A stretch of DNA of 64,000 nucleotides from NCBI GenBank assembly GCA_963691655.1, contig OY829329.1:7330708-7394707 (forward strand). Reading direction: 5' to 3'. This document shows, in pieces, positions 1-51,900 of this stretch. The position numbers and the translations under genes are program-made. Under the pieces are notes generated by a model. It saw only the letters and a list, made by a program, of their open reading frames with translations, ran no database searches and was not told the DNA's origin. This stretch comes from Toxonevra muliebris (Eukaryota; Arthropoda; Insecta; Diptera; Pallopteridae). How positions within the stretch are numbered: the first letter of the stretch is position 1; each line of letters starts with the position of its first letter.

Positions 1-702
1 ATAAAGTAGGCAGTATACCAAGAATTCCGAAATGATTATTATATTTGAACCATGTACACTTTGAAAAGATATAATAAAATTAGAATGATGAGAATCACTC
101 AATTATTCACTCAAAAATAATGTAGAGTTGAATACACATCACGGTTGCCTCTAAAGCTTTGCTATTATTATTATATTTATTTCATAGGTTAGTTAGAGAG
201 AGAGAGAGAACTGAGTAATGCTCTCTTATCCCACCTATACTAATACCACTGAAGATCCCATCAACCGACTCGAATCACTGGCGTATTGGAGTTTGCTTTT
301 TTGGAGTTGACACTCTTTTTTCATTACTGTATTGAAAGTAAGAGATAGGGTTTTGGTGTAACTTGTGTTCAGTGTTACCATATTGAAAGATTTATCTGTA
401 AATTACGGTTTTTTAGAAAGCAGGGGCCGAATTGTCTGATCCTTGAATATAGTGCTGGTCACGTAATTTGCACAAAAATACATGCAAAATACCCACTTTT
501 ACGTGAAGAGTAGTACGTTCACGGATCAGACAATTCAACCCCGGGTTTTAAAGATTTTGCAAAGTGAATAAGTGTAGGTAGGTTGTAGGATCACAAAGCC
601 CTGTGATAATTCGGGTTTGATTCTAACTTATCTCAATAAAACTACCTCAAACTAAACTAAACGAATGCAAAATTAAGCAAATATATATGTGTAATAACTT
701 AC
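1..702. other. Left flank, no exon recognised
   Basis: The next Nipped-B exon should lie to the left of the donor at 702-701, but no open frame with splice sites and recognisable C-terminal sequence is seen here on the minus strand. The stretch holds a (GA)n run near 196-209 and a short inverted-repeat element at 423-543. The missing terminal exon is therefore inferred to lie outside the window. Confidence 0.5.
423..543. mobile_element. Short inverted-repeat element (MITE-like), ~120 bp
   Basis: The left arm GGGGCCGAATTGTCTGATCC and the right arm (reverse complement GGGGTTGAATTGTCTGATCC) match at 18 of 20 bases, and similarity continues inward (TGAA, then CACGT near both inner ends). No coding capacity. 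It looks like a tiny non-autonomous DNA element or its footprint in the 3' flank of the visible Nipped-B exons. The target-site duplication is not clear. Confidence 0.75.
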
Positions 703-6700: not shown

Positions 6701-9700
6701 AATTTGTACATACTTTTGAAAGCAATCGCGAATGAGCTTATAATTTTTTGTTATCTTATTTACAAGAGCTCCAAGGCAGGAAACGCAGCTAGTAACAACG
6801 GCTTGATTCAGTGAAACTACTAGAAGCATCAAATGTTCTTCTAGAGATGCCAAAAATGATTCACTAGCATAATTTACCAGAGGTACAACCTAAAATATAC
6901 ACAGAAAACCATAATAAATAAATTCTCTATTTTTATATATATGTAGGTACAATAAGAAAAGTACTTTTTCTAGAATATCTGCAACTGCGCAAATAAATTT
7001 AGGAGCCGTTGTCGGATGGCACTTTATATTTAGATATGGCTCGATAGTAATTGCATGCCGTACAAGTAACTGTGGACGAACTTTAGCCAATAGATGCAGT
7101 GTCGTTATGCAACCAAGCATACGAGCATTGTCCGTATCCTCCAGTTCAATTAAACGGTCAACCAGGCCATCGGCCAACTGCTGACACGATAGCACAATTT
7201 CTGCTGGTGGTTCAGTATTCTTTTTAACGGGCTCTTGAGCACTGCCATCAAGTTTCATCATATTCTCTTTGGGTTGAAAAATCTGCAGAGCAACAATAAA
7301 AGTTAAATCGATGGTAAAAATGTTTGCATTTTTAAAACATACACTATTCAAGAGACCCTCTAGCCATGTGGTTCCCGTGTCATGTGCAGTATTGACAACA
7401 TCTATGATTTGATTTATTTTACGTTGTATACCATGCTGTAATTGTAAAAAAATATTTAGGTTTATAATTTTAGGTCATAATATGTAAAGGCATCCTGTTT
7501 ACTTTATCATTTTTTTGGCAGGGTGTAAACCACATTTTCATAAAGACTTCGGTTACAAGCTTTTGTATGCCCTCTTCATCGTTGACGCGTCTTATCATTT
7601 TCACGCAAATTTCCGGAATCTTTTCAAAATCAGGATAATCTATACAAATATCGCGGAGAATTTTTATCACACGCTTTCGCACCGATACACCCGTATCCTA
7701 AAATCATTAAATTAAAAGTGCTGATTAAACGTTATCACAATTGGAAATTAGCTTTTCGTACCAAAATTCTAGTGGATAACATATCGTAATACTGATCGAT
7801 CAATTCCTCGTTACTCAGCACAAATTTGCCAACTAAATCGACAGCTGCTTCACGTACTGATATGGCAGCATCTAGAAATTTCTGATTAACACCCATTTGC
7901 ATATCTTTACGCTTAAGCACCATCGGATCTACTTCGACAATATTGGCTAGACATTTCATTGCACGCGTCCTTACAGCTATGGATGGCTCGCTAATTGGTT
8001 AATGCAACAACATGCAAAATAATATTACTTTTAAACTCAATTTAATTAAAACAATAATCACTTACTTCACAACTAATATAATCTTTTTCAGATATCCATC
8101 GAATGACTGACTAAACGGTCTTTTCGTAGCCAAATATTGGGCTATCAAATGTGCATTGTTATAATCTATGTAAGTCTTAATATGCTGTGATGATGTGTGA
8201 TTGATATCGTTCGACGACGATGAGTATGGTTTTATATTGTTCAGTAAATACCGTTTGCGTTCTTCGAGTACATTGAATATTTCTAAATTTAATTCCTGAT
8301 CGATAACGCCGGCATTCCGATTATTAGCTGTGTTAGTGTCATTGCCACTATCATCGCTAGAATCGGAATCCGATGAACCAGATAAGACTTCTGAAACCAT
8401 AAGAAGCATAAACATAATCAATAAATTTAAATAAATTCAAACTTGATGACGATTACTTACCTTTTCTACGCTTTTTACGTGCTGTACTCTTTTTACGCGA
8501 CGCGTAACCTTTTCCGCCTTCAGCGATGCGTCGCCGTTGAGAAATTACATCACGATACCACTGAGTCAAATAGAAATGCCTTGCATAATCCCATATTAAG
8601 TTTTCTTCCTGTGCATTTACAGCCAAAAAATCTAAAAGAATTTTTTGCAGAAATTCGGTGCGCTCTTCCTCCGGATCTATTTCAATTTTACTCTGTAAGG
8701 ATATATATATATTTGGTAAGAAAATGCATGCAATTCTTGTGATTTTGTAAAATATTTAATCATACATTCACGGTTGGTGAATCGCCTTCTTTCTCTTGCT
8801 CTGCTTTTATCAATTTAATCATTGAATCGATTATATTCACTTTGCACCGAGACTCTACAGTATCCTTTCGCAAACGTGCTGCTACAATACCCAAATAGTC
8901 AAGAGATACCAAGCGTATGCTCTGCTCAATTGATTTGTCGGAAACATATCGCACAAGTAAGGTCCCCAGCAGAGAGAGTAGTAATTCCGATGCCGGCCAT
9001 TCAGGTTTATTAACAGTTGCCAAAAGATCATGAATGAAATTCTCGAAAAGTGGACGGAAGTCAGTCTCGTTCGAACGTGATTTACATTTATTTAAAAATG
9101 TTGTAAGGAAGTTTCCCCCTATGCTGAGGGCAACATCGTATTTCTTCAATACAATAATATCGTGATTTGGTTTTCCTATTTTTGTAGCACCACCCGGCAC
9201 ATCATCGTCCAAATCGATAATAGTTTTGGCTTTATTCTGCTCGGTATGACATAGTGAATCAGGTAGAATTGTTGCGCATTGTATAAGCTGCAGTACCAGA
9301 GCGGTAACCATTTGTATATTTCCACCATTATTTGTCAGTTTAAATGGCCGGAGATTTTTCTTCGAAGATGGTAAACGATCAATGGATGAGAGTATATCAC
9401 CAAGAATGCTGCTCCGAATTTTATCGTATTGTTCTTTACGAAATATCTGTAATTTGTTTGAAATTATTATAATATCAATTCTTACTACAGATTAGATAAC
9501 AGAATATAGTGCATCATCTAAAAATGATTGATGAGGGGCGGGGGCGTCATTTTTTGTATTTTTGTTTTTTTGTATTATTCTTCTTATAGAAATGCCCAGG
9601 TGTAGGACTTGTCATATTTTGTAGATAGAAAAAGAGTACAAAAGATATAATTATTAAAAAATATAAACAATAACAAACCCTGAGGTAAATTTCTTTTTAA

Positions 9701-12700
9701 ATCTTCCTAAAACCATTTGTCGAATTTAACATTTTATTTTGAAAATTTTTTGATTTTTCTCCGATTTGGATTACAAAATAATATCGGTTAAACCTAAATT
9801 TGAATTCCCTAGTAAACGTCGTATCTGTCTTTTTCTCTCTCTCTTTTCTATCCAGACAATCTTTTACAACAACACCTCTTAAAAATCAGCTACTTCGTGT
9901 GCGTGCAATCTTTCTCTTTCTTTCCTTCGCTCTATTTATGGTCACATCATTTTAATGCAGCAATAACAACACAATTAAGAGTACAGTTGCTCAGAGTGTT
10001 TGCGATTTTTCTCTCTTTGTTCTCTTCTACAAATGGTATCTTTACCCAGGAGAGAAAAGAATGAATTCCATTCTAAATTCTTTAAATTATCATACTACTA
10101 AATATTATTACACATTGCCATCGCCACCAGTTGTCATCTTCAAAAGTTTACAAATGGCATCCCTACCCAGAAGGAAAAGAATCACTTCTCAATTCGTAAA
10201 ATTACCCTAGTACTAAATACTATAGATGCTTACCGTTGTCACCAATTCTAAGCATATAAACTGCAATGTTTCAATATTATCCACAAAGAAGGGCTCAATT
10301 GCTAGAGTCGATAGTGGCAAGACGATGGTGTCTACAAATATGCATTTATCGAAGAGGGTTACGAACACCTTCATTAATTCTACTGCCTTTGAGTAGAGTA
10401 ATTGCAAGCTGCGATTGTGATTTTGTTGCCCTTTTGATTTTTTACGATTATCTGCCTTTTTCATACTTTTTACAGTGTAAACTGAATCATATGATGGAAA
10501 AATTGTTTCGCGAAATTGATTTTGCACAAATTTTATAATAAGCGAAATGTTATCTTCTTGTAAAAACTTTAAGTCTTTTGCTGTTGAATATATATTGCAA
10601 ATGAGAAGACATGCTTCAATTGCATTAAGAATTTTTTCCATGACATCATCGTCAAAAATTTCATCTTCGTCATCCTTAAAATAAAAGTTAAATAAGAAAT
10701 CATATTGGTGTTTATTGTAAATAAAATTAAATTAAATATAATTACCGGGCCGGCAGAATAGTTTTTAGCCAAGTAAACATTACGCATTGCGTAATTAATA
10801 AGTAACGTTAGTTTATTTTTCGGTATTGAATCCAGTACCTGTTTGGCTTTTAGTTTAGCGACATCATTGCTCATTGTGTTGAGCATTTTGGATGAGATAC
10901 ACTCGATATTTTCATCAATATCATCTGCAAACAAATTAAATTATTTTTATAATAATTCATTATAAAAAAATAATTAAAAATATAATCAAACCCGATTCGA
11001 AATTTGGAGGTTCTGTGTCATCTAACAATTCAATAATTTGCTCCATATTACGCATGAATTGTTGATACGTTTGAGAACGCATTACTTCTTCCTTCGAACA
11101 TTTTGGAGTAGGAGTTGCCATAATGCGTTCCACCCGACGAACTTTCGGTTGAGATACTGAAACAATAATATTCATTTAGTTAACATGAATCTATACCCAA
11201 GGGAAAATTTTCAAATAAAAAGATATTTATACAAAATTTACAATTTGTAATGTTTGGTCAATATTAATCATACGAACTTCAGTGATAATAGAATTACTAA
11301 TAATATTAAAACATTAGTAAAACTCTTTGATTTTTTTTAACCATTTTAAGCATTAACTTTTTATTTATTATTTTTATTTATGTAGGTATATAGCAATGAT
11401 GTGAAAGGTGCTTGGCAACCACCCAAAAACAAATCAGAAAATTTCAATTTCTATTATCAAATTCAACTTACATATCTGTTCAGGAGGAATTTCATCCATT
11501 GGAATGGCCAATTTGCGTTTCGCAGTTATGCGTTTTTCATCTGCCTTCATCATGGTGAAGGTATCAGCACCAGCACTAATTGATGTCGAGGTGGTCGGAA
11601 TTGAGTTTACATCAGAGGCTGCTGATGGTGCTGATGCTGCAATATCGGTAGCAGCAACTGGTTGTGCTGCAGCCGAGTCAGTTGAACTAGAAGTAGCAAC
11701 AACTGTCGCCAGATCAGTCAATACAGGTAAACCCATTTTCTTTGCCAATTCTGGTGACTTTTGTACAAATTCTTTAATACTTTGTTGCATGAGACGTGCG
11801 TCCTCGGCTTTAAGTCGATTTATACATACCCGAACTTGGGATTTGCTGCTTGATGTGGAAGACGAACCCATAGCGGTGCGTCTATCTCTCATAACAGCGG
11901 CAGCGGGAGCGAGAGTGGGAGTGGGAGTGGCAGATATTTCGGAATTTGTTTTTGCTGCAGTGATGTGTGAAATAGCAGCAATTTCATCTGGCACAGAATT
12001 ATGGTTTAGTGCTGAAACCGATAATACCGCCTGTTGTTGATGTCCTTCAGGAGCGATTGCCGCTTGAGTTGGCGATTGATTCGATGAGTTTTTATTTGGC
12101 TGCTGATTTTGCAGGAATTCGTTGTTGCGTGGAGTCGTTTTGTGCACATGCTGTTGGAGTTGTTTTTGCTGTGCCAATTGTTGTTGCATTTGTTGACGTT
12201 GCAGATTTAATACATTTTGAAAGTTGCCTTGAATTGCTTGTGTCTGTGGCTGTGGCTGCTGTGATGGTTGCTGCTGTTGTAGTGGTGGCTGTTGTTGTGG
12301 TGGAGGCTGTTGTTGTGGTTGCGATTGCGGAAGGGGATACGTTGCCGATTCTAAGATTTGCGAGCTTTGTGCATTTTGTGCATTTATTTGTTGCTGTTGA
12401 CTCGTTATGACAGATTTTTGTTGAGGCGTTACTGTTGTTGATAATATTACCGATTGCTGTTGATGCGTTTGACTTTGCTGGATTACAGATTGATCTTGCT
12501 GCGGCTGTTGTGGCATTATCAACGTTCCCTGTATTTGTATTACCGACGTTGGTTGTGCAATTTGTTGCTTCTGACCGTGGCAATTCATATTAGAAGAAGG
12601 TTGCGGTAACTCTAGTTGCTTTAATGTTTGCTGTTGTAATTGTTGCAGTTGTTTTTGCTGCCCTTCAACATTATGTTGTTCCGCTTGTAAATATACTCCA

Positions 12701-13905
12701 GACATTTGTTGCTGTTGTAGTTTAGGGGAAATTTGTTGCTCACTTGCATTACGTCGCGTTCGTCGTGTGGGCGTATCAGGTACAGCAATATTTGCCTGTT
12801 GAACCTGTTGTTTATTTATATTGGAAGCATGACTTCTAACAAGAACAGAAATTCACATTATTATTATGAACATTTTAAAGTTTGAATTCAAACTTACACT
12901 AAATTGCTTGGTTGCATTGGTTGTTGCTGAGTTGTGCTTGAATTTATCTGTTGGGCAATTTGCTGATGCTGCTGCGGCTGTTGTTGTTGAATATTAACAA
13001 CGACAGGTGTACTAGTGTTGGAAGATATTGTTGTTCCCACATCCGGTACAATTTTAAGTTGCTGTTGTGGTTGCAGTTGTTGTTGTTGCTGTTGTTGCTG
13101 TAACAATAACGAATCAACAGCTAAATGTGACTTTATAACATTAGGACTGCCTAGATTTTGTTGAACATTTTGATGAACGTGTTGATATTGTTGTTGTTGA
13201 GGATATGGATGATGATTTGCTATTGCTGCTGATAATTCAATAGTTTAAGTGTAGAGTACATAATTAACAAATAAAATAACTTACACATTCGCTGTGGTGT
13301 ATTGAAAACAGTAGGTCGAAAATTGTATATACCTTGTAGCAATTCCGGATAGGTGCTGATATTGGTTCCATGTTGTTGAATTGCATATTGTGGTTTTAGT
13401 TCGCTACAAAAGTTTTTATGCAATACAAATTATGAAAGATTGATCGAAATATATAAGGTTGTTCTATGCCAACACTAACATACCACTTGATAAAACTATT
13501 ATAAAAATTAAAATTGATTAAGGCCTTATGTTAGATCGAAGACAATTAACCTAATTGCTTACCGAAATTCTATTCAATATGTCTTCTTAGTTTCAAAGTA
13601 TTACTTACATATTATCTGAATTAGTCTGCTCAATTGCATGAACTAGTTGCTTAACCAAATTATCATCGCGCACCGACAATAGATTGTTAGACTCATTTGC
13701 CACTAAGGTATGAAATAAAAGTGATTTATTTAAAGGAGCACCATTAGATAGAGAGTCCGAAACAGGAAGTTCACTGAGTACTGTAATAATAAAATACAAT
13801 TTAATAAAAATATTAACAAAAAACTTAATGTTGCATACAATCCGATAAACTCGTCAACCCGGCTAAAGTTGTTACCGGAACACTCGGAATATCACGATCA
13901 CTCAT
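703..13905 (-). CDS. Nipped-B: Nipped-B / NIPBL (Scc2) cohesin loader, 3'-incomplete
   Basis: HEAT-repeat subunit of the cohesin-loading complex (with MAU2/Scc4), acting on chromatin. Exons on the minus strand, 5' to 3': 13905-13839, 13780-13609, 13403-13285, 13228-12898, 12835-11472, 11156-10992, 10924-10746, 10674-10234, 9446-8766, 8692-8461, 8390-8066, 7990-7762, 7697-7503, 7435-7343, 7282-6965, 6889-6714, 4842-4694, 4524-4240, 4170-3935, 3862-3702, 1682-1025, 945-703. All junctions are GT-AG and phases agree, giving 2273 codons with no stop. The start MSDRDIPSVPVTTLAGLTSL and the following exon form the conserved MAU2-binding N terminus. Exons 4-5 are a low-complexity Gln-rich region. Exons 8-21 carry NIPBL HEAT-region signatures such as HIQMV-like NIQMVTALVLQLIQ, ARHFYLTQWYRD, VRKRVIKILRDICIDYP and KMIRRVNDEEGIQKLV. 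An acidic stretch (DPDDADSDDE) lies in the last visible exon. Introns are mostly short; 4171-4239 is only 69 bp. The C terminus is missing. Confidence 0.95.
1748..2706 (-). mobile_element. LINE 3' fragment with RNase H remnant, in a Nipped-B intron
   Basis: Minus-strand open segments show an RNase H-like block (2531-2211; IYTDSQAAIKS and FWVPGHIDIS) followed by a Cys/His C-terminal block typical of LINE ORF2 (1972-1748; LTRHCIMGRHAARLGL, CRDCGSEEEKETVLHVMCDC). Frames are interrupted by stops, so it is a dead copy. RNase H downstream of RT is known from I-, LOA- and R1-type LINEs; exact clade not assigned. It lies in the 2-kb intron between Nipped-B exons 3862-3702 and 1682-1025, in the same orientation as the gene. 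Confidence 0.85.
2707..3180 (-). mobile_element. Second LINE 3' fragment with TAGATT-type tail
   Basis: The minus-strand segment 3124-2804 encodes a LINE ORF2 C terminus (TGHCRVNKHLSTLGL, then CRICNEEEETAEHILCHC, ending at a stop at 2804). It ends downstream at 2723-2707 with a short AATCTAATCTAATCT tail, the type of simple repeat that terminates many non-LTR elements. It abuts the other LINE fragment at about 2706, so two elements are stacked in one intron. The block 3124-2804 is open but lacks the rest of the reverse transcriptase. Confidence 0.8.
5315..6220. mobile_element. Long-TIR MITE, interrupted by a second MITE
   Basis: The left end GGCCGACAAAATTTGACG and the right end (reverse complement GGCCGACAAAATTTTTGCC) begin inverted repeats that remain alignable over about 110 bp (shared AAACCAGACTA, AAGGATTTTGA, CTCGTCAGG/CACGTCAGG). 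No coding capacity. The middle (5537-6055) is a separate element flanked by TTAA. Sits in the Nipped-B intron 6713-4843. Confidence 0.85.
5537..6055. mobile_element. piggyBac-type MITE (TTAA target duplication), nested
   Basis: Flanked by TTAA on both sides (5533-5536 and 6056-6059). Ends are CCCTTAAACGCCCA and, inverted, CCCTTAAATACCCA. TTAA duplication with ends beginning CCC is characteristic of the piggyBac superfamily. It contains the near-palindrome GGTCACTACAGTGACC near the right end. At 519 bp it has no transposase. It inserted into the older element 5315-6220. Confidence 0.85.
10024..10257. repeat. Diverged direct duplication overlapping a Nipped-B exon end
   Basis: Two adjacent copies of roughly 115 bp align: 10024-10138 and about 10146-10257 share TACAAATGG(T/C)ATC, TACCCAG(G/A), AAAAGAAT, CTA(C/G)TACTAAATA and a block resembling ACCGTTGTCACCAATTCT. 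The second copy runs into the 3' end and donor site of Nipped-B exon 10674-10234, so the first copy is a decayed duplicate of that exon end inside the intron. Aligned by eye; identity is only moderate. Confidence 0.5.
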
Positions 13906-29584: not shown

Positions 29585-32500
29585 ATGAACGGTGTTAACA
29601 ATAGCAATGATGATGTGGTTGAATGTCCATTGTGCATGGAACCTCTTGAGGTTGATGACCTTAACTTTTATCCGTGCACTTGTGGATATCAGGTAAAATT
29701 ATATATACTATTGGTTAATGATGAATTCAAGTAATTTAACCTAAATATATCTCTCTAATAGATTTGTAGATTTTGCTGGCATAGAATTCGCACGGATGAA
29801 AATGAGCTATGCCCAGCATGCCGGAAGGAGTATCCCGAAAATCCAGCGGATTTTACTCCTTTAACTCAAGAGGAGGTTAGTAATGCATTAAATTTGACAA
29901 AAGCAATAAATAAATCTGTATTTTTATTTCCAGATGATAGCATTCAAGTCGCAAAAACGGCAACGCGACCAGCAGCGGAAGCAAAAAATTACGGAAAATC
30001 GTAAACATTTGTCCAATGTTCGTGTTGTTCAAAAGAATTTGGTATTTGTTGTTGGTCTTCCTCCTAGGCTGGCAGATGCCGATGTAAGTTTTTTTTTATT
30101 TAATTAACATTATGAATTGAAGTTTAATTGTTGGCTATTACAGATTCTTAAAAAACATGAATATTTTGGGAAATATGGCAAAATACATAAAGTTGTGATA
30201 AATCCAAGCACTACATATGCCGGGGTACAAGTAAGTTGTATTAAATGTATACACGATAGCAAGGAAAGCATCTCCTGTATAAAAGAATTTTAGAATCTAA
30301 GTAGGTAGTATTTGGTTATTCCAAGCGAAACAAAACCGAGGTTCCTTCCAATGTTCATTTCTTTATCATTTGATAAACATTTATTTACTACTCATACCTC
30401 TATCGATACATTCTTATCTTCCTACTGTACCTATCCATAAGTCGAAATTCAAAGATAAAAAACTATAACAATTTGGACGAAATTTTACACATTCACAAGT
30501 AAAAGCAAAGGCAAGTGGTGGTATATACATAAGTATGTGTTAGGTTTCTGCTTAGAATGCCTGGATTCGTTATTAGGCACGAAAAAAAAAAGATTGCGTG
30601 CAAAGCACGCAGAAGATTGAATGTGTAAACCGTTCAAATTTAATTCGTTTAATTTAATAGGCCTTCAATAGGCAGTTGTGCCATAAAATTTAGTAGTAGG
30701 ATATCTAAGGATTTGTTGGATGATTGAAATATAGGAAGTGTGTAAAAAGGGTATTAAAGATACTTTCCTTGTAAAATCTGTGTAACTAAAATAACGTTCT
30801 AGAGATGTTCTTACATAAATATGTTTGTACTTCATCATCAACCCCACTGAAGGGCCCATCTGCGTCTGCGTATGTGACATATGTCAATAATAGTGATGCC
30901 TTGCGTGCAATACAAAGTGTCAACAATGTAATGATAGATGGGAGACTTATTAAAACCAGCTTAGGTACAACAAAGTATTGTAGCCACTTTATGAAGAACC
31001 AACAATGTCCTAAAGGAGATTGCATGTATTTGCATGAATTAGGAGACCCGGAAGCTAGTTTTACAAAAGAGGTAAGTGATTGCCCCCATACACAGGAAAC
31101 AAAGAAAAATAAATACAAATACAAATTTATAATATTTTATAGGAAATGCATCAGGGTAAGCATCAAGAGTATGAGAAACGTCTTCATGATGCATTAATTG
31201 CAAATTCTGGTGCAAGTCCAGCTTGTTCAATGGGTCAAGTTTCCTTGAATAACGGTTCAATGGTTTCAATAGGGAACAGTGGCAGCAGCGTTAACATGGC
31301 TAATTCGAAAAGTGGTGATAGCAAGGCACAAAATGGCAACGTGTCGGCTTCTTCGTCATCAGTGTCATCAGCGATGTCTTCATCATCCTCATCGTCGTCG
31401 TCGGGATCTGGTGGAACTGGAACGGCACCAGCAGCTGGAGCTGCAGGTTCTACACAACAGAAAGAGGCTTGGCCCAGCCTATCAGTTTCCCCAGTTAATA
31501 TAAAGGAGATGGTAAGTGGAAGTAATAATAGTGGCAAAAACAAAAAAGAAAAACCAAAACACGAAAAGGTAAAAAGTGAAAAGAATGCCAAGGCGAAGAA
31601 TAACAAAAACAACAATAACCAGAACAATAACAGCAGCAGCAGCGGCAGTAGTAATAACAATTGCAACGTAACTAATAAGGAGAATAATCATCCGCACAAC
31701 AACAGCACGAAAGAAATTAACGCATCGTTAGTAGATTCAACATCAGATCAGAATAATAGTGGCAATAATGTGAATATCAAATCAAAGTCAGACCGAATCA
31801 AAGAAAAATCGCTGTTGAATCGCAATAACAAAGATCAACAGAAAGAAAAGCGAGCCATTAGTGCAGACGAGGAAGTAAAATTAATCGAAGACTCGGAAAT
31901 AGTACGAAGCGGAAATAGTAACAGTAAAGGAGTTAGCAGCAGCAGTAGCAACATAAATAGTGAACTCCTTGATAACGGAAACTCTGATGAAAATGCTGCT
32001 AAGAATGAAGACCAACGGTCCTTGAGCTCGAGCAGCAACATCAGTAGTAGCAGCAGTAGTAATGGTAGCAGTGCTACCAACAACAGTGATGTATTATCCA
32101 TGAGTGAAAGTGTCAGCGGAAAGAGTTCTCCCGGAAGTATCCCAGAGTGTAATTTATCGTTTAATAGTGAAAACAAATCTGCAGTTTCACTTGATATCAA
32201 CAACAGTAATAGTAGCGATCATTCTAATCATCAGCAGCCCATAACTACTACTGTCACTAATAACAGCATAATTAATGGTGAAATGATGTCAGCATTAGAA
32301 AACATAGGCGATAATAAAAATGAGAGAATCAATAGCGAACTAACCGATTCCGATATACAATTGCCCAATGGTAATGCTGGTAATATAGTAGATACATCAG
32401 GTGAGTTTCATTGCATTAATGGGCTTATTTTCTAGTACTAATTTGATTTTTGATATTTTAGCGGCTCTATCTAAGCTGAATCTTTTCGACGACAGCAACA

Positions 32501-35500
32501 GTTTCTTCTCATCGGCAGCTTCATTTCAGCAGTCGCTGTTGTTAAGGAACAAACTGGGCTCTGAAGTACGGCAAAATCCAATGAATAGCGTTGTCGCTTC
32601 ACATTTACCTGATCTACTAAATGGTATGTATGCTTGGATCTTGTATAAATATAATATAAGAAGCTATTCTATTGTCGTACTCTGGGGAATTACCATAGTA
32701 ACCGATGGTCAAAATTTAATTAAATTCTAAAATTTTCATTATCTCAAAAATTAAAAATTCAGTTTTATAGACTAACACTTGACATAATAGCTAATAAAAA
32801 AATTTATTCTTTTATTTCCGGATTCATTTGTTCCTTTCTGATTAAAAATATCACAAATTCACTATGTGGACATCTATTTTTGGACATTTATGACATTCAA
32901 CAGGCATCGATGGATACCAAAATAACACAAATTCAAATGGTATGTTTACTGATTCTATACATATGCTCTTAAGAAATTTTTTTTAGGTTTGAAAAAGGTT
33001 TAGCGTGAACATTTTTGAAATCAGGAGAATTTGCAATTTCTTACTACCTTTGAAATATGGTTAGCAATTTGATATCTCTATAATTTCGTCTATTCGATTG
33101 TCGCACAGGAGAAAAACAACAATATGTTTATATAGGAAAATAATTCTAAGCAAAAAATTACTCAAAAATCGTCGCTAGAACTGTGCACGAGCTATGGAAT
33201 CGTGCCATTGATGCTTGGAACATATAAGTATAAATATTTCAATGAACTTTGTTGAAAGTATAAAAGTTCTAGGAACCTTATAACTCAAAAATCAATACGC
33301 TTCTACACGTTTTTCAACAGTATTTGAGAAGATTCCAAATATACTTGAGAGAACTCCAAATTGATATCAAATTATACCAAATATATTTCAGAAAATCTAA
33401 ATTTCATTTTGGTTATTTTGAAATACTTACATTTGGAATTTTCGGAAGCACATTTGATTATTCTGCAGTACATCTTGAAGTTCTCTGAAGTATTTGGAAT
33501 TATCTGAGGTACAATACATTTCGTTATTCTGAAGTATGAAATTTTCTGAAGTACATGTGAAATATTCTAAAGTACATTTCTTTAATCTGAAGTACTTTTG
33601 AAATTTTCTGAAGTTCTGTACTTTTTAAAAAAGAATGTTTGGAATGGAATAGAATTAAACTGTTTATGTTAGGATTAGAGAAATATCAGTGTAGATTTAA
33701 AATTCACTCAGCTTAAAAACTAAATGCACCAAGTTTAATAATTTCAGGCAATCTTTATTAAAGTGCGCGGTTTAAAAAAAAAAATAATTTTAATATATCA
33801 ATTACTCGATTTCTTTATATATGTCTTTGATATATTTCTTATTGAGTTGTATGTACTTCTAAATCGACGATCTGTAAAAGTGCAATAATATTTTTATGCT
33901 AGGGAAACAATATTACTATTATTATATAAATACTGTATCAAAAACTATTTTATACATTAATCTTTAAGAATGGGGAGAGGCATTCAAAAATATGATGAGA
34001 CATACTAAACAAATGGGTGAACTGCAACAGCATCAACACATGCAACAGCAGCATCATCTTCATCATCAGCAACATCTTCAACAACAAGAGGAGTTCCTTC
34101 GTATACAGGAATTACAAAAACGAAATAGTTTATTGAATAATATCGGATTTTCACAAATTAACGCACCACACAATGGTATGTCCTAAAGTAATTTAAATTA
34201 TGTATATATATGGGTATTGTTTCTTAAAAAAAAAAAAATCATTAATCTAATTTGGAAAAATAAATATTTACCGTGGGGGGGAGGAAGTAGAATTTCTGGA
34301 TTTTGTGCGAGCAACATCCGACAACAGAATTTTTCTATCGGCCGTTCACGATTTTTGACTAAATAGTCTAAAAAATATTTAATTTTGTTTGTTTCGAATT
34401 TTAGACTTTGCAAACAGTTTCCAAGGAAGCGCTGATATTAGTCGATTATCACAAGCGGCTCTACTACAACAGCAACAGTTGTTACAGCAACAAGCGGCAC
34501 ACTCAGCAGATCACTTAATAAACAGTAGTTTATTTGGCACAAGTATGTCAAAGTTCTTTGATTTTCACAAGAACCAACAACAGCAATTGCATCAGCAGGT
34601 AAGCTAATTTTCACATAAATGATTTTGTTAAAATTAACTAACCAATTTGCCAAACCAAAAGCAATTCATGATTAATGGGCATGCTAGTAGCAGTGGAAAT
34701 AATCCGTTAAGCGACCATTTACGCATGGCATCTTTATTGGAGAACAACCGATTTAATTCACAATTTTTAGATCAATCAAATGGTAAGCAAATATTTAATA
34801 TAGTTATACACATCCTTTTAAATTATAAACATATAAAAAAAAAAACAATTTTCGTAGGGCTTCTCAACCCACAACAGCAACAACTTCAAAAGCAAAGATT
34901 ACTTAGCAAATTTGATCCAATGGTGATTATTACTAAATATGCTTTATCAAATTATGCTTTAAATAATATTATTAATCAACAGTTAACACAGCAACCACCA
35001 CAACAACAGCAAGCACAGTCTCAAAATCAGCAACAACAACAGCAACAGCAAACTCATTTAAATCGCATAGCAAATCCATTTTCACAAAATATCTCGGTCG
35101 ATGACGATTTAGGTTTGTATTTGTTGGCATGCTATCTACCGTACTGTATTATCAAGGGGTAGGGGCATTGGAGAGGCAGAATCACATTTTTATCAATCAG
35201 CAATCAACCCGCAGGCAACTATAATAAGAGTAGATACGCTTTCTGCACTGGTCTCAACAAACAAACAAACAAACAGTATGCGCATATTAGTTGGTGTTCT
35301 AACTGGGCATTGCGGGCTCAGAGAACACCTTTGAAAAATAGGGATTGAGCAAATGAGGAAGACAAATCACCAGAACACATTTTAGCTCAGTGTGGAGCAC
35401 TGATCCACAAAAGAAGGAAATGTCTGGGTACGCACCAAGTGCACAGTACTGAACGAGCATCCATAAATCCGGGTGCAATACTCGAATTCTTGAGGGAGAC

Positions 35501-37583
35501 TGGACTGGATGAGGTACTCTAGCAGATTTGACTAGATAGAAAAGAGGGACGTACAATAGATCTTATAGGCCGCGGTACAACGACAGAAACCTCTAATACA
35601 ATACAATACAACCCGCAAGGGATACCCCTATAAATACAATGCATTGTGTTCATTAGGAAAGAGAGAAAAGGGAGAAGGAAAGTGAAAGAAATATCGGCTA
35701 ACATTCACTTTGAATTTGGTTAGGAAAAATAATTCTGGGAAATTTATTCCATAAATGAGAAAAAGTTATAACTATAGTACGTGGTGCGTTGGAATATCAT
35801 TTTCATGTCAAATGTGTTTTTCTGGTATACTGTTCACGTAATTTTGGGGAGTACACTAACCGATGGTAGCAAATGTCGTGTCTCTATGGAACTTGTGGAA
35901 ATGGAAACTATACACGTCACTCTATGCTCCAAAGAGCCAATAGAACTGGAAGCCTTATCATCTCCTATTAACTTTATCGCTCTGTGCTCAATACGGTTCA
36001 GGAGAATATCTTCTTTTGTTTTGTATCTATTTTAATTAAAAAATCGCACTAAATTTGGCATCCGTAATGTAATCTAAAATTTTTTGTTTTGCTTTGTAAT
36101 CCTAAGCTTTTTGTAAGAGCTCAAACGTTAAAATCGAATCAAATTTGATAAAAAAAAAGAAGACAATTCAGAAAGGTTGGATACAAAAATTCGACTGCGA
36201 CATATAGGGCTTGGCGGCCTGATTATAACGACATAACGACACATTTTGCTACTGACAATTTGTTGTATCTTACAAAAAAAGAGAGAGGGGATACGTGTAC
36301 ACATTAACGATCACAAAAAATCACACATTAGTCTACTTCTTCCTCCTGCAATGCCCTAATTCCAATCTGTACGTGCTCAAGTATTCAAATCCTTAACTTA
36401 CACCATAATGGCATGGTATGCCAATTTTAGAAAAGATGAAGGAGTTTGGTGAAAATTGTTTTAAGAAAAACTGCTAAAACTTATCAATTTACTTTTGATC
36501 TTATAAGCTATGAATTTTTTAAATTAAAAAAAAAAATAATTAATATCCATTTTTTTTCCAGGCTTCGATCCGTTCATAGAGACACAAAAAGGTTTAGCCG
36601 AATTGATGGAAAATGAAGTAGTACAACAGCAGAATACTAGCGCAAGCAACAATACTAGTAATACAACAGCGGTTAATCCAAAATCGTTGCAGCAACAGCA
36701 CCATCAGCAACAGTTAATGGATAATAATATGCAACGTACGCGTATGCCTCCACCAGGTTTCAATCATATGAATGCTTTTGGATTTGGAGTACCTCGTTCC
36801 CAAAGCAACACCAGTAAGGTTTTACCATTTGTGAATATCGAAGGTAATGGTACAGTAGCTAATGGACAACAACCAACACAACAACAAATGCAAATGCCCA
36901 ATTCGTGGAACCCGCATTTGGCATCATTTCAGCAGCAGCAACAGCAAACACTGGGTGATTCACAAATGCATAAAATGAATCAAAATGGTGGTCCGCCGAA
37001 TGGTGGAAGTCATAAAAGTGAGTATACAAGATATATTTACGATTATTTGTAGAAAAATAGTTTTCGATGTGACCTTAAACACATTTTTGGGTTTTGCTCC
37101 ATTTTTAAACATCTCAAAAAAAAAAAAAAAGGTTTTCAAGTCTTTTGAGATATAATTTTTATTACTGCATCAGTTTTATTAATATTTATTAAATTTTATA
37201 GGTTTTAGCAACAACGATTGGACGGCAATGGATCCAGCAATTCTTTCATTTCGGCAATTCTCCTCATTTCCTCAACAACAACAGCAGCAGCAGCAACAAC
37301 AGCAGCAAATACCGCCTCATCCACAACAGCAGGACATGTTTATACAACACTTGACGCACCAGCATCAACAAAATAATCCGGCTGGTAATATCACATAAAT
37401 GAAAACATATTAATTCCCTATATTAACTCTTTTCTAATTATAGGTTTTGGTTCTCAGCCACAACTTCAAGGCGGCGTCAATTTGTCTAATGGCTTGCTGA
37501 ATTCGCAGCAAACATCTCAGCCACAGGTAAACACCAATGTTCAAGGCATGTTGGAGTATTTAAAAACTCGTCAATTTGTTTAA
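29585..37583 (+). CDS. Cnot4: Cnot4 / NOT4 E3 ubiquitin ligase of CCR4-NOT
   Basis: RING-type ubiquitin ligase associated with the CCR4-NOT deadenylase. Exons: 29585-29692, 29762-29875, 29934-30083, 30144-30230, 30853-31071, 31143-32400, 32462-32623, 32904-32939, 33969-34175, 34405-34598, 34662-34782, 34858-35112, 36562-37017, 37202-37384, 37444-37583 (TAA 37581). Phases agree; 1229 residues. Residues 14-56 form a C4C4 RING (C14, C17, C31, C33, C38, C41, C53, C56). An RRM follows (NLVFVVGLPPRLAD onward, about residues 110-195), then a CCCH finger (YCSHFMKNQQCPKGDCMYLH) and the conserved KEEMHQGKHQEYEKRL helix. The rest is Ser/Asn- and Gln-rich low complexity with conserved islands such as GFDPFIETQKGLAELME and EWGEAFKNMMRHTKQ. 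Longer than human CNOT4, mainly from low-complexity insertion. A second C terminus is encoded at 41187-41330. Confidence 0.93.
32904..32939 (+). other. Cnot4: 36-nt microexon of Cnot4
   Basis: Bounded by TTCAACAG and GGTATG, it encodes GIDGYQNNTNSNG across the junctions. Flanking phases (both 1) are preserved with or without it, so it could be skipped in frame. Confidence 0.65.
33300..33630. repeat. Degenerate short tandem repeats in a Cnot4 intron
   Basis: Variants of TTCTGAAGTACATTTGAAAT recur roughly every 25-30 bp across this stretch. Identity is low and copies are irregular. No coding signal. Confidence 0.55.
35287..35611 (+). mobile_element. LINE 3' end with AATAC tail in a Cnot4 intron
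   Basis: The plus strand encodes an ORF2 C terminus in two frames: LVGVLTGHCGLREHL from 35287, then after a frameshift EDKSPEHILAQCGALIH, and a C-terminal block ending ETGLDEVL with a stop at 35520-35522. The fragment ends in an AATACAATACAATACA tail (35597-35611). 5'-truncated and frameshifted, hence dead. It sits in the 1.45-kb intron 35113-36561 in the same orientation as Cnot4. Confidence 0.8.
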
Positions 37584-43967: not shown

Positions 43968-44042
43968 GAGTTCTCCCCAGATTCGAACTCTTTACCACCG
44001 GATTCACAGACTACTGTCTTACCCGCTGAGCTATCGATTTGC
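43968..44042 (-). repeat. tRNA-like unit, array copy 2
   Basis: Differs from copy 1 by very few bases (CTGTGAATCC versus CTGTGGATCC; CCCCAG versus CCCTAG). Same A- and B-box-like blocks. Confidence 0.55.
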
Positions 44043-44140
44043 TTACACTACTCTAATCAAATTTCTTACTTAAGCAAACAAAATTTGAGTACCACTAGGA
44101 AAAACGCAAAGAGAGTAAATTTCTTTAAGAAAAACATTGC

Positions 44141-44211
44141 TTGCGCCACTTGGGACTCAAACCCACATTTGCAGATTCGAAGCTTTATGTGCTACTGTCA
44201 GAGCCACAGAC
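44141..44211 (-). repeat. tRNA-like sequence, diverged
   Basis: Minus strand GTGGCTCTGACAGTAGCACA and GGTTTGAGTCCC resemble A and B boxes. Flanking sequence differs from the array units, so it is a separate tRNA-derived copy. Confidence 0.4.
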
Positions 44212-44297
44212 ACCTTTAAATTTCATTACCTAAATCTTCAATAAAACAAAAGTATTGACAGTATGAAATATAAGAAGACTCAAAGTATTAACCACCA

Positions 44298-44369
44298 GAC
44301 CAAGTTGGGAATCGAACCTGAACCTCCCGGGTGAAAGTCTAATGCACTACCCACTAGACTATCGAGGTC
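44298..44369 (-). pseudogene. tRNA-Glu(TTC)-like pseudogene
   Basis: A 72-nt minus-strand segment runs from GACCTCG to CTTGGTC with AGTCTAGTGG (A-box-like), CTTTCAC anticodon loop as in tRNA-Glu(TTC), and GGTTCGATTCC (B box). The acceptor stem pairs at 5 of 7, the T stem at 3 of 5 and the anticodon stem poorly. Best read as a decayed tRNA-Glu copy or SINE head. Confidence 0.5.
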
Positions 44370-44599
44370 GCCTTACGATTTATTAACAAATGCTTAATGT
44401 AAACCTGAGTAAATGTTTGCCTCTCTCACTCTCTATCTCTTGCCTTCTCTCAGTAAGTATAAACATCTTATAATAGTTGCTCTCACATTATCTTGTAAGC
44501 AGCAGGGCTGGAAAACAGTATTTTTTTGTACCATTTTCAATACTTATTTTTTTACCATTTTCAGCACAATTTTAACCATAAAAAACGCACATATAATAT

Positions 44600-44815
44600 A
44601 GGTATTCACGCGTTGATGCAAAAGTGCGAAAGTGCGACTTAAAGCACTAAGATGTGAGCGTTCAATGCAAATATTGGAGATGCGAAATAGTTTAACTGTC
44701 AAAATATTACTATATCATTGAAAAATAATGAAAATATGGATTCTTCTTACGAATTTAAAGGTAGAAAGGTGTCAAGCTTCCGCAATCCGCATGTTGTATC
44801 AACACGTGAATACCC
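44600..44815. mobile_element. MITE, ~215 bp
   Basis: Left end GGTATTCACGCGTTGATGCA and right end (reverse complement GGGTATTCACGTGTTGATAC) are imperfect inverted repeats. No coding capacity. Confidence 0.65.
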
Positions 44816-45597
44816 ATAATATAATTTCAATACAATGCTACAGTATTTTTATTTTTTATGAAGTTGTAAATACAAGATAGCGGAAAAGTAATCATCCGAT
44901 TTGTTTTAGTTATAATTTTTTTTTAAATCATAAAACCATGATTTTTTTATATTTTTATAAAACAATCTTCACAAACTGCAGCACGCTTGAACCATATTCC
45001 GCAAGTTTCGCTCCAGCGCTGTCGACTGGGTTCATTTTCGGGAACGATAAAAAATGTTTGTTTTTTTCAAACCTATATCACTTCTATTTTTATTTAAAAA
45101 AAAATACAAATCGGAGGTCAAATTACAAGACACATAGTACTTTTTACACGAAGAAAACGTACGGAAATTTTGTGCAATTACACTCTTATTGCTGATCAAA
45201 TTTGCAAATTTCTCGACGGCGGGAATTTTTTTTGGATTTGGGTTTGTCCCGCGATGTTTACATATCATTGTTATGCGGATATCGGAATTAAAAATTAATT
45301 AATTGTCAGCATTTTTTTTTATTTTATATGTAGTTTTTATTTAAATTGTTATTATTGTGACTTTATAAATATAAATATAATTGATAGTAGTTTTTGCCAG
45401 TTTAGTTAATTAGACTTAACTAATATATGATCCAACTATAAATCGTATTGTCTTAATTACTTATTATGTATTACAAAATAAAATGTAGAGATTATCATAC
45501 CAGTATGTAGGAGGAGCTTGGTGTAACCACATACGATTAGAAATGCAACAGTGAAAAACATATTAGCCTTATACACGATTTGGTGCAAATGATCTGG

Positions 45598-45680
45598 CAT
45601 CATTGCAAATGCAAAATAATTCTGCTATCACAACAACAAATATATGCGATATCCCATAACAATTTGCATTTGCAATGATG
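45598..45680. repeat. Inverted repeat with 18-bp arms
   Basis: CATCATTGCAAATGCAAA (45598) pairs with TTTGCATTTGCAATGATG (ending 45680), about 45 bp apart. Located in the 3' region of the kinesin's distal terminal exon. Could fold in RNA or be an element remnant. Confidence 0.6.
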
Positions 45681-46258
45681 ATAAGAGGTTTTTTGTTTTC
45701 CCCTGAACAAACTCCACATATGTATGTACATTAGAGAGGACGTGTACTAAAAAAAATAGTCTTACAATATATTTAATTCTTCTTCACAAAAATCCATGTA
45801 CGTAATGGGTTGACATATTTATCCACTCTAATGTTCATACATGTACATTGATACCTTAATCTGCAAACAAGCTAAATTATTTTTTTTTTTTTTAAGTTTT
45901 ACAATATAGTAGTCAGCTCTCTTAAAAGGCCATCTTTTTTTTCTCCTCAAAATGTTCGTTAAGTCCATTCATTATAATGAAGACTTCAACGAACTAGTCA
46001 GTTTTATAAATTATTTTTGAATAATTATTTCAATTATTTCACATTAATTAATATTTTGTTCAGAATTGCGAGAACGTAAGTATGTAAATATAATTATAAT
46101 AAATTGGCGTTAATTTTTAAAAATTATAGTAAAGATGATTAATGAAAAACAGTTTGAATGGTAAATGAAGCTAAAATTTCCAATGAATAAAAGATAAATC
46201 AGTGCTGCACATTATGAATAGTTGCCAAAAAATAAAGCCACACACACACATTAATAAA

Positions 46259-47029
46259 TCATAAATGATTCGCTCTCCTCGAATAGGTTTTGCTGTCGTC
46301 GTTGTTTTTGTCATGCCTATCCGTAGTCATCGAGCGTATCATCATGTTGTTCGTTACAGATAATAAATTTAAATTAGTATGACGGTATAATTGATTACGT
46401 GTATCATTGATCAGTGTTTGTGACTGTGACTGTGGTGATACGATTCGACGACTTGAATTCGAAGATGACCTGATCGGAAGTCTGCCGATGCGTTCTGGCG
46501 TAATACTGGAGTGAGTGCATCGTAGTCGTAACAATGCCGCATTAAAAGGAGATAAATCTGAAGAGCTTCGTTTATTTTCAGATGGAGACGACAGATAATT
46601 TGTAGCATTAGAAATAGATCTTTGACCTGTAACAATTCTGGAAACATAGGCTTGTTTTTGTGCCATTAGAATAGATGATGAACCGCTTGGGGGGTTTCTG
46701 CATGTTGGTGTACTTGCGCTAGTTGAACGTATTAAGCTGTTTTTAGCACTGTGAACATGGGGATTCGTTGCTTTGAACATCATTGTTGAATTTTTTGTAT
46801 AATTCAAATGGTATTGTTTGACAGGCGGCGTTGTGGCAAGATCACTTGTGTTTACTCGGGCTAGTGAATGTGTGGATGTGGATAAACGTTTGCTTAAGCC
46901 TTTATTCGTGGAATTCATTGTTGGTATCTTACTAATACTTTGTGCATTGCGATAGCGTTGTGGATTCAAATTGTGCATTGTATTGGCAGAATTTGATTGG
47001 AGTCCATTCTGATAATTTTTCGCGAATTG
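46259..47029 (-). CDS. Klp31E: In-frame 256-codon extension after a UGA-C stop
   Basis: Directly after the UGA (47032-47030) that ends the distal alternative kinesin exon, the same frame stays open for 256 codons to TGA 46261-46259. The product is basic and Ser/Thr/Asn/Arg-rich with no hydrophobic segment. It contains SISKIPTMN, an S-x-I-P motif in a Ser/Arg/Lys-rich setting as seen in EB1-binding proteins, plus NKGLSKRLSTSTHSLAR and TPERIGRLPIRSS. Composition looks coding in a region where other frames close quickly. The first in-frame Met is at 46978. Direct splicing from the preceding exon (phase 2) to the AG at 47009 would shift the frame to an early stop, so plausible routes are stop-codon readthrough, internal initiation, or a separate gene. 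Confidence 0.6.
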   Translation of the reverse strand, partial: QFAKNYQNGLQSNSANTMHNLNPQRYRNAQSISKIPTMNSTNKGLSKRLSTSTHSLARVNTSDLATTPPVKQYHLNYTKNSTMMFKATNPHVHSAKNSLIRSTSASTPTCRNPPSGSSSILMAQKQAYVSRIVTGQRSISNATNYLSSPSENKRSSSDLSPFNAALLRLRCTHSSITPERIGRLPIRSSSNSSRRIVSPQSQSQTLINDTRNQLYRHTNLNLLSVTNNMMIRSMTTDRHDKNNDDSKTYSRRANHL

Positions 47030-47099
47030 TCAGCTATTATTCATCGAACACTGTCGACGTAGAGCATTGGTTAAACGCCATATTCGGACTTTACCCTCG
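47030..47099 (-). CDS. Klp31E: Distal alternative terminal exon of the kinesin (WD40 end)
   Basis: After the acceptor CTTATAAATAG (ending 47100), the exon joins in phase with exon 49551-49361 to give FTASSEGKVRIWRL, then TNALRRQCSMNNS and TGA (47032-47030). It supplies the same final WD40 strand (VRIWR) as the proximal exon 49062-48966, with identical phase and nearly identical wording. The two are therefore alternative last exons that arose by duplication. The stop is followed by C. Confidence 0.7.
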
Positions 47100-47119
47100 C
47101 TATTTATAAGCGAGTGTTT

Positions 47120-48965
47120 CATTTTTTATATTAAAGATATTAGATTGATGCGTGCAAGACAAACACAAAGACAAGAAGCGTGTATAGTGTTTGCAATAAC
47201 ACATGAAGTAAAAGTAATAACAGATGGAGATGGAACAGATGAAAAGTAAAAATAAGAGAAAATTAGATAAATGAATTCAAATGAAGTTTCAAATACTTAA
47301 GCACTATTTAATTTTAATATGCGTAGGTATATATACATATCGTGGGTATATACCAAAACCATGAACGCCCTAAATTGAACTATCTAAGGCTGACTTCAAA
47401 TTCTATATAAATCTAAATAAAATTTGTGGTTTCAGAGACAAAAATGGTATTTCAAATTCGCGTTTTCATGAATTATAGGCGGAGTTTCAAAATTAATTAG
47501 ATGCGGTATACATAAATACATAACTTCCAAAACTTAAATGCAACATTGTAGACTAAGTCAAAAATTTTAAAACGCATCTTAACTGTTGTCGATGTGCGTC
47601 AGCTATAATTATTGAGTACAAAGTTGAATTACTGTTGGGTCTGTCCTGGAATTTTTCGATATATTCAATCCATTCATTCATTAAAACCCTATTTACTAAA
47701 CTATTTACCATCATAAAATTCTATGTAAAAAGGTTCAAATTCTGAAACTCATCCGTACTTACTTGGCAGGCGCTACAACCGATGATCGGTCTTGACCGCC
47801 TCCAGTTGATGAATTGTGTATTTGGCACATTTTATTTAACTCAAAATTGGTATAAAAAAGAAATTACATTCATGGTATTAGCATTTACCCTACGATACGT
47901 ATACATGGTTTTAAGTTATATATAGTTTAAAGAAATTTCTTGATCAAAATCAATTCCAATTTACATATACATAGAAGGCATTTCATATCAAATCGATCAA
48001 AATACCAATTTTATGACATGATCCTCCCTCCGATTTTCTTTAAGTTTCAAGGTCAATATAAAATCAAGATCAATATAAAAACTTAAACTAATACCTCTCT
48101 TATATCTAAAATGCACTAAAAGGTATAAACTAAATGTTTCTGCATATAAAATTATATATATATTGAATATCTACTGAGAGTGATTCCGTTTGATGGTTAA
48201 AGAAAGATAAATAAAGGTTATGCCAAGATAAGTAAAAAATTTAACCTCACTATGGAGCAATATTGGTCTACGTGAGGCATTCACCGCCACTGGTGTAACC
48301 TAACCTATAGACAAACTTCAAAATTTGTAAAGAACAACTGAAAGTATGTCTATACCAAGGCGTTAATTAATTAAAAAATTAAGTGGACTATCGAATTCTT
48401 ATTGCGAGTTGTCATTGCAATGATTGATATTTGAAATGATTTTTCTCCGCTTTTTTAAAAAAAGTATTATTATATTTTGACTTTGAATTTAACTGCTTTT
48501 TCAAAATATTTTTTTGAGGTACGTTCAGTGATTCTCAGAGCAGAATATGACTGTGGATCGCATTCCAACTTTGTTTGGAACTTAATAACATCGAAATAAG
48601 ATACTTAACGAACAAAAATATATCACATTCCTTATGATCGTTTTCAGTTTAATTTGAGATAATTAAGCTGGAATACGTCATCTTCCTCCTGTAAAAGTAT
48701 TATGAAACCTATAACTTACAAGTTTCAAATTACGAAAACAAAGCTTAAAGCAATATGTATATTGAATTAACCATTTAAAATACGAACACCAATACGAATA
48801 TTTATTTGTCGTTCTTGCATTAACCATGGAACGGAATCAAGCTGTATGTAGTACATATGTAAACATTAGTAAAGCGACTATATTAGAAAATACATTAACT
48901 CAAGTTATTAAATTGTATTAATAATAACAACTGAAGTTATTAGCAGATTATTATATTTAGCATAT
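47120..48965. other. Region between alternative kinesin last exons
   Basis: No gene. A repeat-like phrase GCAGGCGCTACAACCGATGA followed by TCGGTCTTGACCGCC at about 47768-47803 looks like a dispersed insect repeat. TTTATT at 48801-48806 (AATAAA on the minus strand) could be the poly(A) signal for the proximal terminal exon. Confidence 0.45.
48801..48806 (-). terminator. Poly(A) signal for the proximal kinesin 3' end
   Basis: AATAAA on the minus strand, about 160 nt after the stop at 48966. Confidence 0.4.
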
Positions 48966-51900
48966 TCATTTTGAAGATAATTTTTTTTCGAGCGACGAAG
49001 TCATATTCGGTACAGAAAAGTTTTCTTGCGGTGCAAAACGCCATATTCGTACATCGCCGGAGCTGAATGTATAAAATGATATGAAATTATAGATAGGAAA
49101 AATAATAAGTAAATAAAAGAAGACATGCATTTAAAATTTAAATAGTATATATGATTAAGTTCTAAATATTCTAGATTTGTCTTATTCCTAAATCACTAAA
49201 AATGGAATCAAAATATTTATCACTCTATAACTTTAGAAAAGCTTGAAAAAATATATCCCTCAAATAAAAATGTTGGTTTATTTTGACCAACGGAAACGAA
49301 CCACCTTTTATATGTATATGTATGTGCATAAAAGCATGTTGGGATTTGGAAAAAACATACCTAGATGCTGTGAAAACACGCTGACCTGACGCCACAATAT
49401 CATTAATCATTAATCCGGTCTTCATTTCAGCTATATTCTCGCAATTTTTAACATTCCATAAACGTATGATGCCACCGCGACAACTAGAAAGCAAAATATC
49501 ACCCGATATCGCCATTCCAGATATCCAGCTTTTGTGAGCATTGTTGAGGGACTGAAATTATAAAAATAATATAAATTTTAACGCTTCTAAAATATTTATT
49601 CTTCTAAAATGAATATTGGTGACTTATCCGCCACAAATACGTTCTGAGAAATTATATTCTTCGGTTTAACTTTAACTTATTCCTATGATTATCTCTCACT
49701 GCTCGGTAGCTCTTTTAGTTAAATTTAGCATGTTTTCAATGAATAGTAAATTTTATGATTTAGAGTCAAATTCGAGTGTGTTTTATGTACCCTTTATCCA
49801 TTTGAATATTTCTTTTAAATAGATTACGTGATTAAATATTGGTCCTTCGAGCTAACAAAAACAGTGAAATTGTGACAAACAAATAAAACGGTCATAAAAA
49901 GAAAAAAATAACATTAATAATAAACATTTATTTAAAACAAACACAATTAAATAAAAACACTGAACATAAAAGAGTAACAAGTACAAAATCAAGCAACCAA
50001 CATTAACAACATCATCTAGAACAAATCCTTCCCGGTTTTCTTCTTAGTGCAGTAAGACAAAGGCGGCTAGTTCTCAAAAAATGTATTTTGTACTTATTTA
50101 AGGGATGGCATCCACTTCAAAATTTTAAAAGGCATTTCGAGAATGTCTTCTGTAATTTTGAGGAAATTCTATAAGATTTCTTTGAATTACACAGACACCG
50201 CTACTGTACTCTTTATTTAGATTTTGCCCCAAGCCTACTTCTCCATGCCGAGTTGATTCCTATAACCAGAATATTTTGTTCCAAATTCAATAAATTAATT
50301 GTCCAATGTGAAGCTTGTATTAGCTTTGGAATCAAATATATCTAGTCCTAGAGTTTCATAATTGCTAATTTCCCGGAAACCCAGTATTTGGACCTTAGGG
50401 TTAGAATCCTTACAGCCTAAATATTTAATTAAACTCCATTTTCTCTGCATATCTAGAAAAAAAAAGAAGAGATTATTTTGCGGCAACTTACCTGTTTGAG
50501 CTCGCCGCTTTTAAGGTCCCATCGTTTAATACCAGAGTCTCTACTCCCAGAGAAAAGCTCAGCATCAGCGCCTACGGCATCTCGAGCCACTGCTAGTGCC
50601 TGTACGCCATCATAATGGGGTGGCTCCAAATTTAAGACTGGATAAATTACACCACCTGTCCTGGGTACCTCAAACACTTTAACATAGTGATCTTTGGAGC
50701 CAGTTGCCACAAAATCAGTACTGTCATCTCCGTCACCTTCCCAGGATGTAATACACATTACAGCTGCTTGATGTCCACCTGATAGTTTACCAACGCATGC
50801 CATACTGCAACATAACATAAATATTTCGTACATTTTAATTAAAAAGAGATTGATTTATAGTCCAATAAAGTAATTATTTACTTTTGCAAGTCCCATATTC
50901 GTACTTTATCCGATGCCGCCATGTATAAATTACCAGATTCTCCAATGCACAATGCAGTAATTGGTGATTCGCCAGTAGCTACACCCGTAATATTGGCATT
51001 TCCAGATAATATTTGTCCCGATGATGCAAACGTTTTAATAGGTTTAGTATTACTTGTGCGAAGGTCCCAAACTCTCACATACGGCCCAGAAGCTGAGAAC
51101 AGAAGACCTGTATTTCGATCGTTCTGAACAGCAACCACCGGGCCTGGATGAGTTGAGAGGCAATGCTGTGCTGTTTCTTTGGAAAGATCCCATACTTTAA
51201 CAGTACGATCAGCTGAAGCAGTATATAAAGTATTATCATCAACTTTTATTGAAAGTACAGAGTTGTTATGGCCCAATACAGTGTGAGTACAGTGAAGGGG
51301 GACCCCAACACGTATCTATTAATAAGAGACATGAACAATAAAACACAAATTATTTGCTGCTTCATTCAAATGAATACTCACCTTTCCAGTGGCTTTTTGA
51401 ATGCTGCCTCCCGGCGTAGGGTCTTGTGTACCTGCACCCAATCTAGAGAATACGTCGCTGTAACTGTTAATGTTATTGTCTTCCCGAGAGATCATTCTGC
51501 GATAAACTGGTGGTGATTGAGTCGGGTTGAAGTCGTTGTCTTCTCTAATGTTTTACAGTTTGATTTTACGTAGAATGCAGGTTTTTGTTTTTTTATTTTT
51601 TGTTAAATTAGTTTATGGTGTTTGTATTTTATTGGTTTCATTGAATTATTTAATGGCAGTCATTGGTGAGCAGAGGTAAAAAGATTACAATAAAGCAGAA
51701 ATGTTTATAAAAGCATACTGTTAGAAGCCAAAATGTTTAATGCAAAAACAGAAAATATAACAAGAACAACAATTAAAAACAAATAATGTAAAACAAAAAT
51801 ATTTCAACAAACTAAACCAAAACGTGTAACTACTGTAACGTAAATGCAAAACGTGTTAAAAATAAAAAAAAAATGAATTTATTACAAAAACAATTAGGCG

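Follow-up and report, generated by a model that had tools for sequence, protein, structure and literature searches.

A candidate stop-codon readthrough extension at the distal last exon of a fly KIF21 kinesin

The distal of two alternative last exons of a dipteran kinesin gene ends in a leaky stop context, UGA with a 3' C, and the frame directly after this stop remains open for longer than expected by chance. From this arrangement we infer, with a probability of roughly 0.55, that functional readthrough of the distal UGA-C yields a kinesin with a basic, probably disordered tail. As a possible case of readthrough, a phenomenon already known in flies, this kinesin site is a good candidate.

The KIF21 gene and its two last exons

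A dipteran KIF21, a kinesin-4, is encoded on the minus strand from ~61.7 kb downward in the window (the whole stretch of 64 kb that was analysed). The domain set of KIF21 is present: a motor, a KIF21A-type stalk domain and a C-terminal WD40. Pfam matches comprise WD40 repeats and, in the stalk exon, PF23203, the KIF21A domain (E = 6e-32). The concatenated front part, including the motor, aligns over its full length with the KIF21A proteins of Episyrphus (P0002, 70%) and Condylostylus (P0001, 65%). The protein matches amount to 44, composed of a set of 42 (from a search admitting lengths of about 968-3082 aa) and a set of two (from one admitting about 325-1034 aa). The 42 are dipteran KIF21A/B or unnamed mosquito kinesin-motor proteins, with the exception of P0042, an unrelated WD40 protein; no KIF21 of Schizophora (Drosophila, Bactrocera, Musca, etc.) is named among the 44. 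A KIF21-like WD40 fragment comes from a JGI metagenome (P0043, 336 aa, on a contig of 12441 bases), with 70% identity over 64 residues. The DNA past the last exon in that contig might carry a relative of the tail.

Other features are visible elsewhere in the window. The minus-strand ORF at ~700-13200 contains the Nipped-B C-terminal domain PF12830 and apparently encodes the cohesin loader of that name; at 11434-12852, the same strand holds an open run of 472 aa that is rich in Gln. On the plus strand, the gene at 30790-37052, which we take to be CNOT4-like, has low-complexity exons and matches part of the RRM domain (PF00076) at a score just short of the cut-off. Fragments of an RNase H and of a reverse-transcriptase zinc-binding domain (PF00075 and PF13966, just under the Pfam cut-off) at 2211-3247, minus strand, belong to a LINE-like element.

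The exon before the alternative ends (49361..49551, minus strand; SLNNAHKSW...RVFTAS) encodes the penultimate part of the WD40 propeller, matches dipteran KIF21 and leaves the AG of a split codon. Two alternative terminal exons follow on the same strand. The proximal one (48966..49062) has an end similar to that of Episyrphus P0002 and stops at UGA-A, with another in-frame stop two codons later. The distal one (47030..47099), preceded by an acceptor AG at 47101-47100, reads SEGKVRIWRLTNALRRQCSMNNS-UGA and can be compared with the end of Condylostylus P0001, NDGKVRMWRFTTALRRQCSSIDGAFS. Joined in phase to the AG of exon 49551-49361, it gives S-EGKVRIWRLTNALRRQCSMNNS-UGA (47032-47030), then C; this join bears out the preliminary description, according to which exon 47099-47030 completes the propeller and ends at UGA-C. 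The first base of the exon is the last of the split codon, which is why the interval 46259..47099 is not codon-aligned and shows many stops if read from 47099.

In dipteran KIF21, either alternative last exon completes the propeller. Classified by motif, 30 of the 44 proteins have the proximal end, nine the distal end and five neither. Both end types occur in Anopheles stephensi, where P0013 is distal and P0027 and P0029 are proximal, on contigs of equal length. A last strand of the VRIWR type was matched by motif in 39 of the 44.

The candidate readthrough stop with its 3' C occupies 47029..47032 on the minus strand, in the 3' context CAAUUC. TGA-C accounts for 3.5% of the stop triplets that open six-frame runs in the window, a figure that covers triplets in any frame rather than the termination codons of genes. 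In the nine distal-type proteins, all from other Diptera, the stop lies 10-17 residues past the last propeller strand, and in the window it lies 14 residues past; these nine proteins are predicted, and none of their source flies is as near as Episyrphus. This likeness in stop position was not part of the preliminary description. Since the place of the stop is common to the nine proteins, the UGA is probably an old stop and not an assembly error, and a recent nonsense mutation is disfavored on the same ground. Other properties of the site were considered as well. Rfam includes a SECIS model, and a scan of 44000-49600 with E up to 5 returned no SECIS, the sub-threshold hits being DapZ and URE2_IRES only; a selenocysteine UGA was therefore rejected. 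No stable RNA structure was found 3' of the UGA (z = 0.00), and RNA structure as a stimulator of readthrough was rejected on this basis. The 8-mer CAGCAGCA was not found after the UGA.

The open extension

After the UGA, as had been described, the frame of the distal exon continues without interruption for 256 codons (47029-46262) until another UGA, at 46261-46259, closes it (46259..47029 with this final stop, minus strand). In a local order-3 Markov model built from 9.1 kb of noncoding DNA, with a stop probability of 0.068 per codon, the probability of at least 256 open codons is 1.4e-8, and about 1.2e-4 such runs are expected in the 64-kb window when all six frames are counted. The probability becomes 2e-7 if the base composition of the tail itself is used, and 0 of 5000 sequences generated by an order-2 model of the tail remained open. 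Of the window's 8083 stop-to-stop runs, only four are longer than the extension; they begin at 12855 (minus), 31140 (plus), 56917 (minus) and 1729 (minus), and their ORFs are protein-like. Each of the other five frames contains 13-25 stops along this stretch; the preliminary description had noted that most frames here close rapidly.

The composition of the extension departs from that of its surroundings. Its GC content is 0.39, against ~0.29 in noncoding DNA, and the raised GC forms one block from 47100 to ~46200, covering the distal exon and the tail; one 60-nt bin of the upstream intron also reaches 0.40. The three-base periodicity (chi2 22.9) is attained by none of 608 noncoding windows, which overlap (step 40), so that these and the following window counts are not independent. 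A KIF21 exon of equal length has about twice this value (44.7). Taken in parts, the periodicity is marginal: that of codons 1-134 is equalled in 28 of 662 noncoding windows, that of codons 135-256 in 47 of 668 and that of codons 1-93 in 210 of 682. With a codon model trained on 22 of 24 exon pieces, the tail has a log-odds of 0.043, compared with -0.257 on average for noncoding DNA (2000 random draws, stops ignored; sd 0.084, maximum -0.024), and lies below 20 of the 22 exon pieces. Synonymous codon usage alone does not differ from noncoding DNA (-0.049 for the tail, -0.065 for noncoding) and is again lower than in 20 of the 22 pieces. The coding-like character claimed for this reading thus stands for composition and periodicity but not for synonymous usage. 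The extension is judged to be coding, under a constraint weaker or younger than in the kinesin proper.

As a protein, the extension is rich in Ser, Thr and Asn (69 of 256 residues are Ser/Thr) and basic, as was first noted, with 34 K+R, 9 D+E and a pI of 11.2. An AlphaFold2 model from the single sequence, without alignment, has a mean pLDDT of 44. The tail is probably disordered, as judged from this model, although a low pLDDT is also expected for a lone sequence. A Ser-rich and basic part of the tail contains, at 46922..46933 (minus strand; extension residues 33-36), the tetrapeptide SKIP, which is of the EB-binding SxIP type. The composition of the tail predicts ~0.1 motifs of this type, so the single copy is only a hint.

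No relative of the tail was identified. Significant alignments to the 44 proteins end by residue 84 of 343, the tail starting at residue 88, and the tail is present in none of them. The best tail match among them has E = 0.6 and falls in the region before the WD40 of P0011. It belongs to 17 weak matches (E 0.6 to 10), none significant, N-terminal to the WD40 and mostly from Anopheles, which may reflect composition. Up to E = 1, neither a Pfam domain nor a PDB relative was found, and the protein search returned no relatives of 141-448 aa. Contigs of prokaryotes and viruses, which may hold admixed fly DNA, gave no confirmed match to KIF21 or to the tail. In the genome (491 Mb assembly, 96 contigs), the tail has one match, such counts being lower bounds for repeats, and there is no similarity to it elsewhere in the window; a repeat or duplicated origin was rejected for these two reasons.

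Alternative origins of the open frame

Among the competing explanations, the one that survives best, though unlikely, is a separate frame starting at the first in-frame AUG after the UGA (46976..46978, minus strand; codon 18) and served by its own promoter or by reinitiation past the kinesin stop. This AUG at 46978 stands in the context AATACAATG, and codons 18-256 have the same periodicity as the whole tail (chi2 22.9), a value reached by 0 of 616 noncoding windows. A TATA sequence, TATAAATA, lies next to the distal acceptor (47101..47108, minus strand) and is either a possible promoter element or a chance occurrence; the window holds 31 copies of it, where 13.5 are expected from shuffles. 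A transcript driven from it would first meet short upstream frames at AUG 47067 (8 codons), 47044 (4) and 47007 (13). The missing relatives of 141-448 aa also speak against a separate ORF. What favors readthrough over this explanation is that the tail shares the frame of the exon and that the 17 codons before the first AUG contain no stop. With a separate start, the identity of frame and the 51 stop-free nucleotides become a coincidence, which an unrelated ORF would produce with a probability of ~0.1 (0.30 x one third).

Rather improbable, too, is a coding tail that is spliced past the UGA, either from exon 49361 to an in-phase acceptor in the tail or through an intron within the distal exon. 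The preliminary description had set splicing aside because the acceptor at 47008 gives the wrong phase. This is correct for 47008, the only acceptor then considered; others in the tail are in phase, and the argument was therefore too strong. Those in phase with exon 49361 are at 46748, 46637, 46505 and 46469. They score 1.13 to 2.21, higher than five to seven of the 12 KIF21 acceptors checked, on a scale made of consensus frequencies and not of a trained model, which applies to all splice scores given here. In addition, one in-phase intron (46627..47094, minus strand; donor GCGAGG/gtaaagt, 1.83) bypasses the UGA and deletes VRIWR; its acceptor, 46626, scores 3.64, higher than eight of the 12, while the distal exon's own acceptor scores only -1.08. 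The donor at 47095 is weak, however, in comparison with most known donors (the known-donor control E3, 0.21, was placed at the wrong GT and is not a valid control). Moreover, every bypassing join drops the VRIWR-type last strand that most of the proteins share. Such joins use only the last 69-162 whole codons of the tail and do not account for its first 93 or more open codons, a run with P = 1.4e-3 for 93 and 7.8e-5 for 134.

Relic and chance origins are less likely than either splicing or an independent start. It is quite improbable that the tail is the relic of a former distal isoform, cut off by a recent UGA, or that the UGA is an assembly error. The synonymous usage and periodicity of the tail, weaker than in real exons, would fit a relic, as would the fact that the nine distal-type proteins all come from flies less near than Episyrphus, whose own match has the proximal end. 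On the other hand, the nearly identical stop position in those nine proteins makes an old stop probable, and an old untranslated tail would have accumulated stops. A chance open run in the 3' UTR is the least probable of all, since its low probability in each of the models above outweighs what speaks for it, namely that the absence of stops is the strongest signal, that synonymous usage is noncoding-like and that the protein searches yielded no tail relatives.

Proposed readthrough and the putative function of the tail

If the UGA-C is read through, most ribosomes would still stop there and produce the ordinary distal isoform, a complete WD40 propeller followed by 14 residues. A fraction would insert an amino acid at the UGA and go on for 256 codons. 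The resulting long isoform would carry, C-terminal of the propeller, a basic, Ser/Thr-rich and probably disordered tail with one SxIP motif.

The sequence features are in line with those reported for other readthrough genes. In the fly and mosquito readthrough groups of PMC5100048, the first stop is TGA in 61-76% and the next base C in 49-63%. For flies, PMC4528330 describes 328 genes with annotated readthrough; most extensions measure 8-300 aa and, among the longer, many look disordered. Features in common with known fly genes are UGA then C, a long first ORF and a long in-frame extension within the usual 8-300 aa. In contrast to them, the kinesin is a candidate known from sequence alone, and it lacks both the 8-mer CAGCAGCA and an RNA structure. 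Ribosome profiling (PMC3840789) found UGA in only 25% of the reported readthrough events, and a UGA by itself is therefore weaker evidence than one would conclude from the comparative studies. The D. melanogaster gene caps has a readthrough extension of 240 aa, similar in length, and long extensions are called disordered (PMC4528330). The extension of Caps, a leucine-rich transmembrane protein, is similar to the related protein Trn (PMC4528330), whereas nothing found is similar to the kinesin tail. The word "kinesin" is absent from the main texts of PMC5100048 and PMC3840789, and a literature search for Klp31E together with readthrough found nothing.

KIF21A and KIF21B have the same domain order and PF23203, with a basic Ser-rich region adjoining the WD40 on its N-terminal side (PMC5383399). 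In the fly gene, by comparison, the basic tail would be C-terminal of the propeller and optional through readthrough. Neither the WD40 nor the basic linker of human KIF21B binds microtubules robustly alone, and together they do (PMC5383399, in whose main text SxIP is not mentioned). By analogy with this pair, the tail may strengthen microtubule binding or EB-dependent plus-end binding. A translational switch, in which readthrough would add an EB-binding (SxIP), microtubule-binding tail and the efficiency of termination would set the hold on plus ends, is a doubtful further step.

If the readthrough is real, regulated termination would lengthen the C-terminus of a conserved motor whose family controls microtubule growth, and the extension would be limited to one of two alternative last exons. 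The gene would then offer a testable case in which alternative splicing gates access to a readthrough stop.
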